Positions 4,556 to 9,282 of a stretch of 64,000 nucleotides of DNA are shown here, in pieces. Origin of the DNA: Verrucomicrobiota bacterium (GTDB lineage: Bacteria; Verrucomicrobiota; Verrucomicrobiia; Palsa-1439); the NCBI GenBank assembly GCA_003152315.1, contig PLZV01000013.1:1-64000 (forward strand). The letters are read 5' to 3'. Made by a program: the position numbers and the translations under genes. The notes below the pieces were generated by a model, which did not search any database, was not told where the DNA came from, and was given only the letters and a program-made list of their open reading frames with translations. Each line of letters opens with the position of its first letter. Positions within the stretch are counted from its first letter, which is position 1.

Positions 4556-5581
4556 TTACTTTGTTTTCTCCTGATTTGTGCGCTCACTGAGCAACCGTGC
4601 GAAAGCAGGTTTGTCTTTCTCTTTGCAAGTAACAGTGATCATGGTGATCTCTTCAGGAATTTCACCTTTTTGGGATTTCAGCCAGTCTCCCCATTCTCTC
4701 CACTTGGGAGCGGCCAAGGCCTGCGCTCGGGAGAAGTGTTTTGTCCTGAGACCGTAGCGAAGATTCTCGTTTTGAAACAGGTCGGACAGCTTTTTCTCTG
4801 TTTCCTTGGCTTGGGTCGACGGACATACCAGTGTGTTGATAGGGATCCATTGTTGCACCTCGTATAACGGGAGATAGAGCGCCCCTAGGAAAAGAGAAAG
4901 AAATGCAAAACCGAGGCACCAATCAAGAGGCATTTCCCAGAGCCATCTCCAACGCCGCTTTTGCGATCGCAGAATCCGCATATAGAGAAAACGATCAAGA
5001 ACCAAGAAGGGGAACAGAACAAGCAGACTTGGAAGGAACCATATGTTCACAAGGTTAACAAGAGCAAAGGCGGCCAATGTGACTTGAGGTATTCGGCCAA
5101 ATTTATCGCTCCACCACTCCCGAAAGTTGAGCCCGATGACCAAGAGTGGTACTGCAACGCACACGAACGCGCCGGCACGAAACAGAAGTGCAAAGAGACC
5201 TGCTCTCCGCACTTGGGCAACGTCAGCACTTTGGGAGACGACCGGAGTACATCTCTTCAGAACATCGAACCTGATTATGATTGCCCCGAGGAAGAAAATG
5301 AACAAGCTGACGAAATACACCTTAAATGCCCCAGTCCCCCAGCAGAATTGTTCTCCTCCCAAGTTGCCCAGCATTTCGTAAGTAAAGTAGTTAACTGGTT
5401 GGAAAAACTCCATGTGCTCGTGTATTGGTACGGGTGAATCTTGCGACCAGAATATTTCTCGAGCTGCAGACGTCGCCGCTTGTGTGAGACGATTAGTCGT
5501 TGCATGACGGGTAGCGCCATACAGGAAAACGCCCGCTCCCAACACCAGCAGGGAATACCCGATTGTGACTCCCGCGCGCAT
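4556..5581 (-). CDS. Multi-pass membrane protein of unknown function
   Basis: An unrecognised protein of about 341 residues. A GTG at 5623 would add 14 residues; ATG 5581 is preferred because a membrane segment (VTIGYSLLVLGAGVFLYGA) follows at once, but neither start has a good ribosome site. Further hydrophobic segments are FVSLFIFFLGAIII, AFVCVAVPLLVIGL, FLPSLLVLFPFLVL and GFAFLSLFLGALYLPLY, giving about six spans. The last ~90 residues are hydrophilic (KETEKKLSDLFQNENL onward). Base composition looks AT-richer than its neighbours, which may mean recent acquisition. It lies 12 bases upstream of the lactonase gene and could be cotranscribed with it. Confidence 0.7.
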   Translation of the reverse strand: MRAGVTIGYSLLVLGAGVFLYGATRHATTNRLTQAATSAAREIFWSQDSPVPIHEHMEFFQPVNYFTYEMLGNLGGEQFCWGTGAFKVYFVSLFIFFLGAIIIRFDVLKRCTPVVSQSADVAQVRRAGLFALLFRAGAFVCVAVPLLVIGLNFREWWSDKFGRIPQVTLAAFALVNLVNIWFLPSLLVLFPFLVLDRFLYMRILRSQKRRWRWLWEMPLDWCLGFAFLSLFLGALYLPLYEVQQWIPINTLVCPSTQAKETEKKLSDLFQNENLRYGLRTKHFSRAQALAAPKWREWGDWLKSQKGEIPEEITMITVTCKEKDKPAFARLLSERTNQEKTK

Positions 5582-5702
5582 AATATCATTGTTGGAAGAA
5601 GCCCTGAGCCTGACGCAACTCACGGGTGACGTTTGTACAGCCGTTTCGTCACGTGATCTTTATGAAAGCAGATTGACGGACTGCGATCAAGGATTACCAC
5701 GC

Positions 5703-5735: not shown

Positions 5736-6851
5736 CTAGCTGCTGTGGCGAATATTGATGATGTCGCCATCTTCCACGACGTACTCTTTGCCCTTGATGT
5801 GGAGCTTGCCGGTTTCCTTGAGCTTTACTTCGGCGGCGTGCCACACCTTCGCCGAGGTCTCGGCGGGAACGCTTGCGGCAGCCCCGATCAGGTCGCCGTA
5901 TTTCATCACCTCGGCCCGGATAAAACCGCGGGCGAGGTCCGTGTGAATCGCGTGCGCCGCGTCGACGGACGTGCCGCCGTGGCGAATGGTCCAGGCGCGC
6001 ACTTCGTCTTCACCGCTTGTGAAAAACGAGATGTAGCCGAGAGCTTTGTAGAGACAGCGGGTGAGGATGTTGATGGCCGGTTCCGTGATACCCAGGGCGG
6101 CCAGAAATTCGGCGCGCTCGGCGGAATTTTCGATCTGGGCGACCTCGGCCTCGGTTTTGGCGCTGAGTTCGCAGACTTCGGAACGCAGACCGGTGAGCTT
6201 CGCCTTTGCGTCTTCCATTAGCTTCGGGTTCGGAAAATTACTTTCGCCGCAGTTGAGGGCAGTGACAATGCCTTTGACGGTGAGGAACTGAAGCGAACGC
6301 ATACGCTTTTCTTCACCCTCATGCCACGCATACTCGCGGAGCGACTTGCCCGCTTCGAGGTGCGGCTTAAGTTTTTCCAGCAACGCGGCTTCGTCGGCGC
6401 GTTCCTGCTCGAACTTGCGTTTCTGGTCCTGGGCGATGCGGTTAAGGCGCGTCTCGATGAGGCTGAGGTCGCTGATGGCGAGTTCCAGGTTCATCGCCTC
6501 GATGTCCCGCAACGGATCGACGGAGCCGTTCACGTGAAACACGGCCGGATCTTCGAATGTGCGAACGACATGGCAGAACGCATCCATGTCCTTCAACTTG
6601 TTGAGCCATTGTTCGCGCGGCTTCGGCTCGTGGGGTGGGGCGGGGGCGAGCGTGCACTCGATCTCCGCGTACTTTGTCTTTTTTGGCTGGTACATCGCCG
6701 AAAGCTTGTCGATGCGTTGGTCGGCAACCTTGACCGTGCCGACGTGGTATTCGGTGGCGCGGCTGAGCAAGTGGTCAACTCCCACGCCCGTGAGCAGGGA
6801 AAAGACGGTCTTCTTGCCGACTTGCGGCAGGCCGATAAGCGCGATTTTCAT
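5736..6851 (-). CDS. YchF/OLA1-like protein with degenerate nucleotide-binding motifs
   Basis: 371 residues, the normal YchF length, and collinear with it throughout. YchF proteins are Obg-family ATPases that bind ribosomes. The C-terminal TGS-type domain (formerly DUF933) is well kept: ISFFTSGEDEVRAWTIRHG, AHAIHTDLARGFIRAEV and KEYVVEDGDIINI. The nucleotide site is not. The P-loop reads GLPQVGKKT (residues 7-15), with Lys where GKS/T needs Ser or Thr. The switch II DxxG segment is replaced by CTLAPAPPHEPKPREQW. An NxxE-like G4 (NCGE) remains. Catalysis is therefore doubtful and a scaffold or regulatory role is inferred. It is followed 24 bases later by the aminotransferase gene as read on the plus strand. 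Confidence 0.85.
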   Translation of the reverse strand: MKIALIGLPQVGKKTVFSLLTGVGVDHLLSRATEYHVGTVKVADQRIDKLSAMYQPKKTKYAEIECTLAPAPPHEPKPREQWLNKLKDMDAFCHVVRTFEDPAVFHVNGSVDPLRDIEAMNLELAISDLSLIETRLNRIAQDQKRKFEQERADEAALLEKLKPHLEAGKSLREYAWHEGEEKRMRSLQFLTVKGIVTALNCGESNFPNPKLMEDAKAKLTGLRSEVCELSAKTEAEVAQIENSAERAEFLAALGITEPAINILTRCLYKALGYISFFTSGEDEVRAWTIRHGGTSVDAAHAIHTDLARGFIRAEVMKYGDLIGAAASVPAETSAKVWHAAEVKLKETGKLHIKGKEYVVEDGDIINIRHSS

Positions 6852-6875: not shown

Positions 6876-8048
6876 TTACGCCTTCAGGCTCTTGCAAAAA
6901 GCTTCGATGCGGTCGAGACCCTTCTGGATATTCTCCATCGAACAGGCGTAACTGAGGCGCATGTGCGCATCACTGCCGAAAGCGATTCCAGGAACCGCGG
7001 CAACCTTCTGTTCATCCAACAGCTTCGAACAGAAAGCGGTCGAGCTGAGGCCGAACTTGGAGATATTGGGTAACATGTAAAAGGCACCCATCGGTTTCAC
7101 GCAGGTGACACCCGGAATCTTCGTGAGCCGATCGTACATGTGCGCGCGACGTTCCGTGAAGGCCTTGACCATCTCCCCGATGAATGACTGGTCGCCCTTC
7201 AATCCGGCGAGCGCGCCCTTCTGCGCAAAACTGGTCGGGTTCGAAGTCGAGTGCGACTGGATGGAGTCGATCGCGGCGGCGATGTGCTCCGGCGCGGCGA
7301 TGTAGCCGAGACGCCAGCCGGTCATCGCATACGCCTTGCTGAACCCGTTGACGGTGATCGTCAGGTCATAGATTTCGCTGCTCAGGGACGCGAGGCTGAC
7401 GAACTCGGTGCCATCGTAGACGATCTTCTCGTAAATCTCGTCCGACAGCATGAGGATGTCCTCTTCCAGCGCCACTTCCGCGAGGGCTTGCAGTTCCTCG
7501 CGAGAGTAAACGGAGCCGGTCGGGTTGCCCGGTGAATTGAGGATGATGAGTTTGGTCGCGGGCGTCATCGCATCGCGGAACTCGTCCGGTGTCAGCTTGA
7601 AGCCGTTCTCCTCCTTGGTTTCGACAATCACGGGTGACGCATCGGCGAGCTTGACCATTTCCGGATAGCTCAGCCAGTACGGCGCAGGAATGATGACTTC
7701 GTCACCTGTCTGGCAGGTTGCGAGGATGACATTGAAACACGAATGTTTCGCGCCGCAATTGACGATGACCTGAGAGGCCTTGTAGTCGAGGCCATTCTCG
7801 TTCTTCAGCTTCTCGGCGATGGCGGCGCGCAATTCCGGGATGCCCGAGGAGGGCGTGTATTTCGTGAAGCCTGCGGCCAGCGCCTGCGCAGCGGCATCCT
7901 TGATATATTGGGGTGTATCGAAATCGGGTTCGCCGGCGCCGAAGCCGCAGACGTCAACCCCTTCCGCTTTGAGCTTCTTCGCTTTCGCGTCGATGGCGAG
8001 CGTTAGCGATGGGGTCAGGGTTGTGGCGCGTTGTGCGAGCTGTTGCAT
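6876..8048 (-). CDS. Aspartate-type aminotransferase, PLP fold type I
   Basis: A 390-residue class I aminotransferase of the thermophile/Rhizobium AspAT subgroup (Ib), whose members use aspartate and sometimes prephenate. The PLP lysine is K238 in NGFSKAYAMTGWRLGY; other cofactor contacts are N175 in NSPGNPTG, D203 in LSDEIYE and the FGAGEPDFDTP substrate loop near residue 36. The start MQQLAQRATTLTPS is typical of the group. It is cytoplasmic and would make aspartate or glutamate for amino acid synthesis, linking to the lysC/thrC/hom block at the other end of the window. The prephenate side activity cannot be judged from sequence. Confidence 0.9.
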   Translation of the reverse strand: MQQLAQRATTLTPSLTLAIDAKAKKLKAEGVDVCGFGAGEPDFDTPQYIKDAAAQALAAGFTKYTPSSGIPELRAAIAEKLKNENGLDYKASQVIVNCGAKHSCFNVILATCQTGDEVIIPAPYWLSYPEMVKLADASPVIVETKEENGFKLTPDEFRDAMTPATKLIILNSPGNPTGSVYSREELQALAEVALEEDILMLSDEIYEKIVYDGTEFVSLASLSSEIYDLTITVNGFSKAYAMTGWRLGYIAAPEHIAAAIDSIQSHSTSNPTSFAQKGALAGLKGDQSFIGEMVKAFTERRAHMYDRLTKIPGVTCVKPMGAFYMLPNISKFGLSSTAFCSKLLDEQKVAAVPGIAFGSDAHMRLSYACSMENIQKGLDRIEAFCKSLKA

Positions 8049-8094: not shown

Positions 8095-9282
8095 TCAAAG
8101 TTTACAGTTGTAGGACTCCTCGATAAGCGGCTTGAGGCTGTTATCGCGAAGCTTGATGATCTTGATTTCACGCTGCGCATTCTCGGCCGAATCGCTGGCG
8201 TGCGCGGCGTTAATCATAATGTCCTGGCCCAATTCGCGACGGATGGTGCCCGGGGGCGCCTTGCGTGGATCGGTGGGCCCGAGGACGCCGCGAATCTTGG
8301 AAACGGCCTCCGGCCCTTCGTAAACAACCGCCAGGATCTTCTCCATTCCGGGTTGTGACTTGGCGAGCCCCGAGCAATCTTCCGGTCGGCGGCCCGTCAT
8401 GAACTTCACGATCTGGCTGAATTGTTCGTCCGCGAAAAGGGGGCCCATGACTTCGCCGAGCGCTTTCTCGGTCTGCGGATTGAGTCCAAAGCCAAGTTCC
8501 TTCTCCAGGGCAAGACGCGCGCGCTGGCCGGTGATGTCCTTGAGTTTTTCACGGAGGACCGCGCGGACAGGACCGTAGAATTCTTCGGCTTCGCCGACGC
8601 TCATGTGATGGACCTGAATGGCGATGATGTAGAGGCCCGTGCGAGATAGCATGTCGACGATGTTGCCCGGGCGCGCGCTCGGGAAACGGAAATTGTCGGG
8701 CTTCAGCAGGACGAGGGTCTGCTCGATTTTCGCGTTCTTGGGATAGGAGACGACGTTTTCGAGGAAGCCACCGTCGCCCTCCGAGTACTTGGCCCATAGC
8801 TTGAGCTTGGTTTCGGCCTCTTCGGAGTTCGGCGCGGCCAACACAGCCGGCTCAAAGTATTTTACCTGGCCATCGGGGCTGACGATGTAATCACCGTAGG
8901 TATCGCGGATGGTTTCACCCGCAGTGCCTTTGTCAGACTGAAAACTGCCGACGACCTTGCGCACTTTGGCCACGGCGTCCTCGCCGCGGAACAACAGCAT
9001 CATCACCCGGCGTCGTCGGCCCGTCTTCGGGTCGGGCGAATAATTGTCGAGGATGTACTGGCGGATGAGTTCCTGGATCTTGCGGTCCTGCGGGTCTTTC
9101 GTCGAAACGGTGACCTCGGCATAACGTTCGACGAGTTCGCGGCTGGGGGCGAACATCCGCGCGGCAACCAACTCCAACGCCGTGCGCGTGAACAGACGGG
9201 CGATCACGCCGCCGGTGCGCGATTTGTGGACTGTGTACGGGTTGATCAGTACGTAAGCCAACTCTTCTTTTGTAGCGCTCAT
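8095..9282 (-). CDS. Tandem nucleoside diphosphate kinase-like protein, N-terminal domain lacking catalytic His
   Basis: 395 residues, where an ordinary NDK has about 140. Two NDK-like domains are visible: residues ~8-155 (YVLINPYTVHKSRTGG; VMMLLFRGEDAVAKVRKVVG; GTAGETIRDTYGDYI) and ~188-385 (QTLVLLKPDNF; ILAVVYEGPEAVSKIRGVLG; PPGTIRRELGQDI; NAAHASDSAENA). The second keeps the phospho-accepting histidine, H361 in NAAHASDS. In the first, the matching region reads YFEPAVLAAPNSEEA with no histidine. The C-terminal half is therefore probably the active kinase, exchanging gamma-phosphates between NTPs and NDPs, and the first half a structural or regulatory partner. Both domains carry extra inserts relative to standard NDK. 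Confidence 0.85.
   Translation of the reverse strand: MSATKEELAYVLINPYTVHKSRTGGVIARLFTRTALELVAARMFAPSRELVERYAEVTVSTKDPQDRKIQELIRQYILDNYSPDPKTGRRRRVMMLLFRGEDAVAKVRKVVGSFQSDKGTAGETIRDTYGDYIVSPDGQVKYFEPAVLAAPNSEEAETKLKLWAKYSEGDGGFLENVVSYPKNAKIEQTLVLLKPDNFRFPSARPGNIVDMLSRTGLYIIAIQVHHMSVGEAEEFYGPVRAVLREKLKDITGQRARLALEKELGFGLNPQTEKALGEVMGPLFADEQFSQIVKFMTGRRPEDCSGLAKSQPGMEKILAVVYEGPEAVSKIRGVLGPTDPRKAPPGTIRRELGQDIMINAAHASDSAENAQREIKIIKLRDNSLKPLIEESYNCKL

Follow-up and report, generated by a model that had tools for sequence, protein, structure and literature searches.

P-loop NTPases hold Mg2+ and the gamma-phosphate through the Ser/Thr of the P-loop, a Thr in switch I and an Asp in switch II. In YchF, the residue at the Ser16 position (E. 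coli numbering) is presumably the Mg2+ ligand of the P-loop, and His114 is critical for hydrolysis in the E. coli enzyme. Titles and passages of the literature describe YchF/OLA1 as a universally conserved ATPase. Ser16 of E. coli YchF is phosphorylated, the ATPase domain is apparently a major ribosome contact with ribosome binding stimulating the ATPase, and the exact roles of the helical and TGS domains have been called unknown (PMC8779481). The roles of adenine/base-recognition residues, including Phe127 of hOLA1, have been tabulated (PMC10144078). A comparable set of changes has been discussed for the yeast septin Spr28, where a Lys in G1 and the replacement of the acidic residue of G3 by Leu were put forward, in a computational study, as a possible reason why GTP was predicted to be less favoured than GDP (PMC10731463).

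The window analyzed here (64,000 nucleotides of a contig from a Verrucomicrobiota bacterium) encodes a full-length YchF homolog with an altered nucleotide site (Table 1). The product matched PF06071 with 97.8 bits (cut-off 27) and the TGS domain with 28.8 (cut-off 22.2; both Pfam), and it matched TIGR00092 over residues 3–368 with 253.6 bits, which is below the equivalog cut-off of 279.2; the other proteins of its type, called K-type below, score on either side of that cut-off. Seven solved-structure sequences were matched, all of them YchF or Obg-like ATPase 1 (E 1.1e-57 to 2.7e-36). The protein is a confidently predicted YchF fold: an AlphaFold2 model based on a 22-sequence alignment had a mean pLDDT of 89.1 and a pTM of 0.86, and in Foldseek it gave a query TM of 0.84 to OsYchF1 (5ee0) and 0.85 to ribosome-bound YchF (8kie_y). 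Full-length homology across the G, helical and TGS domains together with the NxxE form of the G4 motif places it in the broad YchF/OLA1 family, while it falls outside the canonical YchF ATPase (the TIGR00092 equivalog), both by its score under the curated cut-off and by its lack of the complete set of G1 Ser/Thr, switch I Thr and G3 DxxG. The original prediction of a length-preserved protein with lost catalytic motifs is borne out.

Table 1. Coordinates of the features discussed, in window positions.
Feature	Position	Strand	Basis
K-type ychF gene, 371 aa (ATG at 6851, stop ends at 5736)	5736..6851	-	ORF; PF06071, TGS, TIGR00092; AlphaFold2 model; Foldseek
P-loop GLPQVGKKT, residues 7-15	6807..6833	-	sequence reading
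Lys14, at the Ser16 position of E. coli YchF	6810..6812	-	alignment
Former switch II (DxxG), now LAPAPPH, residues 68-74	6630..6650	-	alignment
Phe99, probable equivalent of the base-recognition Phe (hOLA1 Phe127)	6555..6557	-	equivalence inferred from numbering offset
His106, equivalent of catalytic His114	6534..6536	-	alignment; 2nd percentile of site rate
G4 motif NCGE, residues 200-203 (N200, E203)	6243..6254	-	alignment
YchF C-terminal / TGS domain	5745..6032	-	PF06071 residues 274-369
Class I/II aminotransferase, 24 bp upstream of ychF	6876..8048	-	PF00155
NDK-like protein, 395 aa, 46 bp upstream of the aminotransferase	8095..9282	-	PF00334, 3 stretches

The same prediction had noted a P-loop that departs from the GKS/T rule and the loss of DxxG, with the TGS domain and NxxE kept; each of these was found in the window protein, and the same state recurs in 39 of 117 aligned proteins and in 31 proteins from Omnitrophota. 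The GxxxxGK of the P-loop is intact, the change being confined to the next residue, the Mg2+-binding Ser. At the switch II position the sequence is TLAPAPPHEPKP, in which L68 replaces the Asp of canonical YchF, and the switch I Thr is also missing from its canonical offset. A genome-wide GTPase defect was considered as a cause and rejected, as Obg of the same genome has an intact GFPNAGKST and DIPG.

The alignment comprised 117 distinct full-length YchF proteins, from which truncated and X-containing sequences, sequences outside 330–420 aa and identical copies had been excluded. By motif, the proteins fell into 46 canonical, 39 K-type, 24 'D' and eight 'I' sequences, where the 'I' class has the P-loop Ser/Thr and DxxG but an altered switch I; the loss of switch I in these eight is uncertain, because five of them carry a Thr one residue off the canonical position. 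The switch II Asp and Gly were each absent from 39/39 K-type proteins and both present in 46/46 canonical ones, the latter count following from the definition of the canonical class by these motifs themselves. At its canonical offset in switch I, Thr was found in 0/39 K-type versus 46/46 canonical proteins; in the alignment, the column for this residue is a Thr in 3/39 K-type proteins, rising to 13/39 when a Thr anywhere in the loop is counted. At the P-loop Ser position the K-type proteins have Lys (32), Arg (5), His (1) or Ala (1), i.e. a basic residue in 38 of 39, with the apparent conservation of Lys inflated because two of the searches supplying K-type loci demanded Lys at this position. 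Among the 14 K-type proteins found by a weak YchF score, with the pattern-found genomes set aside, the corresponding counts were seven Lys, five Arg, one His and one Ala (13/14 basic), and all eight K-type members from the window's family, found by similarity, have Lys. On these counts the basic residue at the P-loop Ser position is not only a selection artefact.

Other elements of the nucleotide site were conserved. Among the 39 K-type proteins, GxxxxGK was found in 38 (P-loop glycines 39/39, P-loop Lys 38/39), Gln at residue 10 in 38, Phe in the Phe99 column in 39, the equivalents of His114 and Arg105 in 38 and 39, respectively, and the G4 Asn in 39, with Glu (34), Asp (4) or Val (1) at the last position of G4. 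Site rates estimated within the K-type placed G7, G12, K13, T15, F99, H106 and N200 at or below the 14th percentile; Lys14 was intermediate (32nd percentile), and the column of the switch I Thr lay at the 78th. In a set of 34 distinct Omnitrophota proteins (31 K-type, chosen by P-loop pattern and including one, L061 from genome G420, that was already among the 39, plus three canonical), the His, Arg, Phe and G4 Asn columns were kept in 34/34 and the switch II Asp and Gly in 3/34, equal to the canonical count. The earlier description of the catalytic half as disabled therefore holds for the Mg2+ and switch elements, which are gone, and fails for the phosphate-loop, base-recognition and His114 residues, which are among the slowest sites.

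The His114 equivalent present in 38/39 K-type proteins also fits a different account, in which these proteins are still NTPases with a rearranged active site, where His106 and a displaced acidic residue would give metal coordination and catalysis. The column of the old DxxG Gly is occupied by Asp in 26/39 K-type proteins (LxPD motifs), and this Asp could be a displaced Mg2+ ligand in those proteins, not in the window YchF, since the window protein and its family have LAPAPPH or near variants without an Asp. With no Thr at the switch I offset and a Lys at the Ser position, which as a matter of general knowledge should repel Mg2+, we consider retained catalysis by a rearranged site to be quite unlikely.

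The distribution of the type was explored with the degenerate pattern G-[LF]-P-Q-x-G-K-K, which matched 19/387 genomes of the window's phylum (reversed control 1/387). The match lies inside a ychF in 18 of the 19; in the exception, G193, it is not in ychF and the only YchF is canonical, and this genome was left out of the K-type count, whereas for G318 (gene cut by a contig end) and G297 (gene broken into two frames) the pattern was taken as sufficient for assignment to the K-type. With TIGR00092, 371 of these 387 genomes had a match (E up to 1e-20), scoring being limited to five candidates per genome, so that second copies may be missed. Re-searching 49 weak-scoring genomes of the phylum yielded 14 with K-type, 20 with 'D', ten with mini-YchF and five others (four incomplete, and G418, which is canonical in its motifs). 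Two further K-type genomes, one from a spirochaete and one from Omnitrophota, came from named contigs. In Omnitrophota, the K-type P-loop pattern was found in 34/285 genomes (control 4/285); one of the two pattern matches in G696 is not in ychF (L243). G513 was counted among the 33 Omnitrophota genomes discussed below on the P-loop of one copy only, the one bearing the pattern, even though stop codons interrupt that copy. In this genome the K-type ychF with internal stops stands beside a second divergent copy (the two loci being C65:30647-31722 and C120:851-1927), possibly a recent loss.

A canonical ychF, for which the original prediction had proposed a check, was not found in the window genome (4.89 Mb in 62 contigs, 95.8 percent complete; all 12 candidates scored), where, apart from the K-type gene, the YchF matches were limited to a short fragment of the C-terminal end and weak hits in other GTPases. 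Among 11 genomes searched from the same family, eight including the window's carry the K-type, and the seven other proteins are 67–92 percent identical to the window YchF; no second YchF was found in these eight genomes besides the fragment in the window genome. The remaining three encode a canonical-like YchF, one complete and two as pieces at contig ends, so that one type has replaced the other within the family. Across the first 41 K-type genomes (eight from the family, 17 by pattern, 14 weak-scoring and two named), 40 had no canonical partner, the sole exception being G347. The same held for 30 of 33 further Omnitrophota genomes, the exceptions being G688, G696 and G639, and G596 contained an additional TGS-only match. 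In total, a canonical partner was not found in 70/74 K-type genomes, while four also carry a canonical YchF. All candidates were scored in the window-genome, family, K-type co-occurrence, 49-genome and Omnitrophota partner searches. Most K-type genomes are drafts, and absence from any one of them is for that reason no proof; an assembly gap hiding a canonical copy was nevertheless rejected, since 40/41 and 30/33 genomes agree and G120, one of the K-type genomes in which no canonical partner was found, is assembled as one contig of 5.7 Mb. As no canonical copy was found in its own genome or in 70/74 K-type genomes, the window protein is the resident YchF, rather than the paralogue beside a canonical ychF that had been proposed.

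The fragment mentioned above repeats the 3' end of ychF over 99 bp with 95 percent identity; it lies on contig C5 of the window genome (C5:13109-13222, L196) and corresponds to about 38 C-terminal residues.

A maximum-likelihood tree was constructed from 89 of the 117 aligned proteins, thinned by identity. The K-type formed one clade (support 100/99) with members from the window's phylum, Omnitrophota and a spirochaete, nested in a deep divergent YchF branch (100/100, 61 rows), and a separate canonical branch held 28 rows, including four Bacteroidota 'I' rows. K-type ychF is under purifying selection, with a dN of 0.038 versus a dS of 0.645 for the closest family pair and a dN of 0.139–0.167 versus a dS of 0.86–1.93 (near saturation) for three pairings of the window gene with more distant family members; residues 1–128 had the lowest dN of three segments in 6/8 pairs. 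We regard it as very improbable that the gene is an inactive paralogue of recent origin or a decayed canonical ychF, a reading that draws on the broken motifs and on the C-terminal fragment elsewhere in the genome, which shares 84 percent identity with the window YchF. Against this reading, the window genome yielded no canonical copy, the K-type occurs in 8/11 family genomes searched and in a second phylum, and dN is far under dS within one deep clade. Nor is the window YchF a single damaged copy, the outcome named earlier as the alternative, because homologs share its motif state; a single damaged copy was rejected on the 8/11 family genomes, the phylum-wide pattern matches, the clade support and the low dN relative to dS. 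The suggestion of an inactive decoy likewise fails, as no canonical YchF was found for it to decoy for and its N-terminal segment shows the lowest dN in most pairs under purifying selection.

The mini-YchFs provide a case in which the nucleotide site is missing altogether. The 14 examined (L182-L195; 229–235 aa, with start codons chosen by hand) are without the P-loop, the His114 loop and the G4–G5 region, and the column beside His106 and its surroundings are gapped in 14/14, while T278, G280, W287, H303, G309-F310-I311, G348 and Y357 are kept in 14/14; the TGS motif columns are invariant or nearly so across all YchF groups in the 117-protein alignment. A mini-YchF is the only YchF-like match in 10/387 genomes of the phylum, and two genomes (G021 and G045) have one plus a longer YchF match. 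These genomes, and the apparent role of the ATPase domain as a major ribosome contact (PMC8779481), are consistent with a nucleotide-free scaffold, in which the K-type G domain would be kept only as a ribosome-contact surface while the coiled-coil and TGS domain do the work, making the K-type functionally like a mini-YchF. However, the P-loop Gly, Gly, Lys and Thr together with F99, N200 and His106 are among the slowest K-type sites, and base-recognition residues would be needless in a pure scaffold. In a second tree, built from 51 of the 89 rows and the 14 minis, the K-type was again one clade (100/99) and the minis fell outside it, grouping together at weaker support (84/88) and with a loose placement within the divergent branch. 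The scaffold reading is thus considered unlikely, if not negligibly so. Because the minis lost the nucleotide motifs yet kept those of the TGS domain, the retention of nucleotide motifs in the K-type looks selected.

A second divergent YchF, the D-type (e.g. IGAPRAGKTAVF), was the sole YchF match in 20 genomes of the phylum (L145, L147-L149, L156, L157, L159-L161, L163, L165-L169, L171-L174 and L177). The P-loop Ser/Thr is present in 24/24 D-type proteins and the switch II Asp in 23/24, while the DxxG glycine is mostly lost and His114 is found in only 2/24; by its motifs, the D-type is the complementary case to the K-type.

The gene neighborhood was also considered as a functional clue. The order NDK-like gene, aminotransferase gene and K-type ychF on the same strand is found in the window and in 7/7 other K-type genomes of the family, but no NDK or aminotransferase match was found in the 9–14 kb stretches around eight K-type genes outside the family, and the clue was rejected on this ground: being seen only in the family, the block says little on general function. 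The NDK-like protein, with its three Pfam NDK stretches, is possibly a double NDK. Directly downstream of ychF on the same strand lies a 355-aa ORF (4556-5623, minus strand) without a Pfam match.

Taken at moderate confidence, our preferred reading is that the K-type is a resident YchF subfamily that has left the Mg2+-dependent NTPase cycle, binding adenine nucleotide, probably free of Mg2+, with little or no hydrolysis, and associating with the ribosome. The positions for coordination of Mg2+ and the gamma-phosphate (P-loop Ser, switch I Thr, switch II Asp and Gly) are dismantled together, with a basic side chain, usually Lys, in place of the P-loop Ser and probably supplying positive charge, while the phosphate loop, the putative adenine-recognizing Phe, NxxE and the His114 loop are retained. 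From the joint loss of the P-loop Ser/Thr, switch I Thr and switch II Asp, no conventional hydrolysis is predicted; from the kept phosphate loop and adenine-recognition residues, nucleotide binding is predicted, and the basic residue in place of a Mg2+ ligand suggests that it is Mg2+-free. We thus infer from motifs that the K-type does not hydrolyze nucleotide, retains Mg2+-free binding and associates with the ribosome, the last because of its family membership and intact TGS domain. Adenine nucleotide would most likely still be bound, probably without Mg2+, and hydrolysis would be very slow or nil; an unconventional mechanism of hydrolysis is possible because His114, critical in E. coli YchF, is kept. 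The input by Ser16 phosphorylation would be lost in the K-type, as the Ser16 position is changed. Rather than a cycling ATPase, the K-type may be a constitutive or ligand-sensing ribosome factor acting through its coiled-coil and TGS domain, and its role is most likely that of a non-cycling ribosome-associated regulator, either constitutive or gated by nucleotide binding alone. The earlier idea of a specialized regulator survives in this form as a proposed role, while the labels of paralogue and decoy attached to it fall. Its premise that ribosome binding of YchF depends on the nucleotide cycle is not stated in section 2 of the review, which has the ATPase domain as a contact and the ribosome stimulating the ATPase (PMC8779481).

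A broader reading, which we offer as tentative and rather doubtful, is that YchF was replaced in many lineages of two phyla by a resident form with a Lys standing in for Mg2+, a cycling NTPase having become a Mg2+-free ribosomal nucleotide sensor, and that, to judge from the minis without a P-loop, the conserved job of YchF would lie in the TGS and helical domains and be independent of nucleotide. A lineage in which the sole YchF is missing its Mg2+ site, or its entire P-loop, amounts to a loss-of-function experiment made by nature, in which the dependence of each YchF function on nucleotide can be tested directly. We take COG0012 to be YchF; profiles and trees that rely on this marker could then be distorted in these phyla by a deep divergent type standing in for the canonical gene. 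COG0012 is among the ten marker genes of mOTUs2 (PMC6399450). Keyword searches of an open-access PMC collection showed no description of a degenerate YchF of this kind among the entries listed.

When compared to known systems, the K-type is closest to YchF/OLA1 (Obg-family ATPase, TIGR00092), with which it shares the three-domain fold, the TGS motifs, GxxxxGK, NxxE, His114 and the base-contact Phe, and the predicted fold of the window protein has a TM of about 0.85 to YchF structures. It differs by the change of Ser16 to Lys, by the missing switch I Thr and switch II Asp and Gly, by the score of the window protein under the TIGR00092 cut-off and by its place in a separate deep clade. With catalytic motifs lost in a conserved lineage under selection, it is a candidate pseudoGTPase/pseudoATPase. 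Among the septin pseudoGTPases, yeast Spr28 likewise combines a G1 Lys with an acidic-to-Leu change in G3 within a P-loop GTPase fold (PMC10731463), yet it is a eukaryotic filament protein of another P-loop GTPase branch, and the likeness of the G1 Lys is one of motif. The p190RhoGAP domains have a GTPase-like fold reported as a pseudoGTPase (PMC5593906), like the K-type; unlike it, they are embedded in a eukaryotic protein and are neither TGS nor ribosome proteins.
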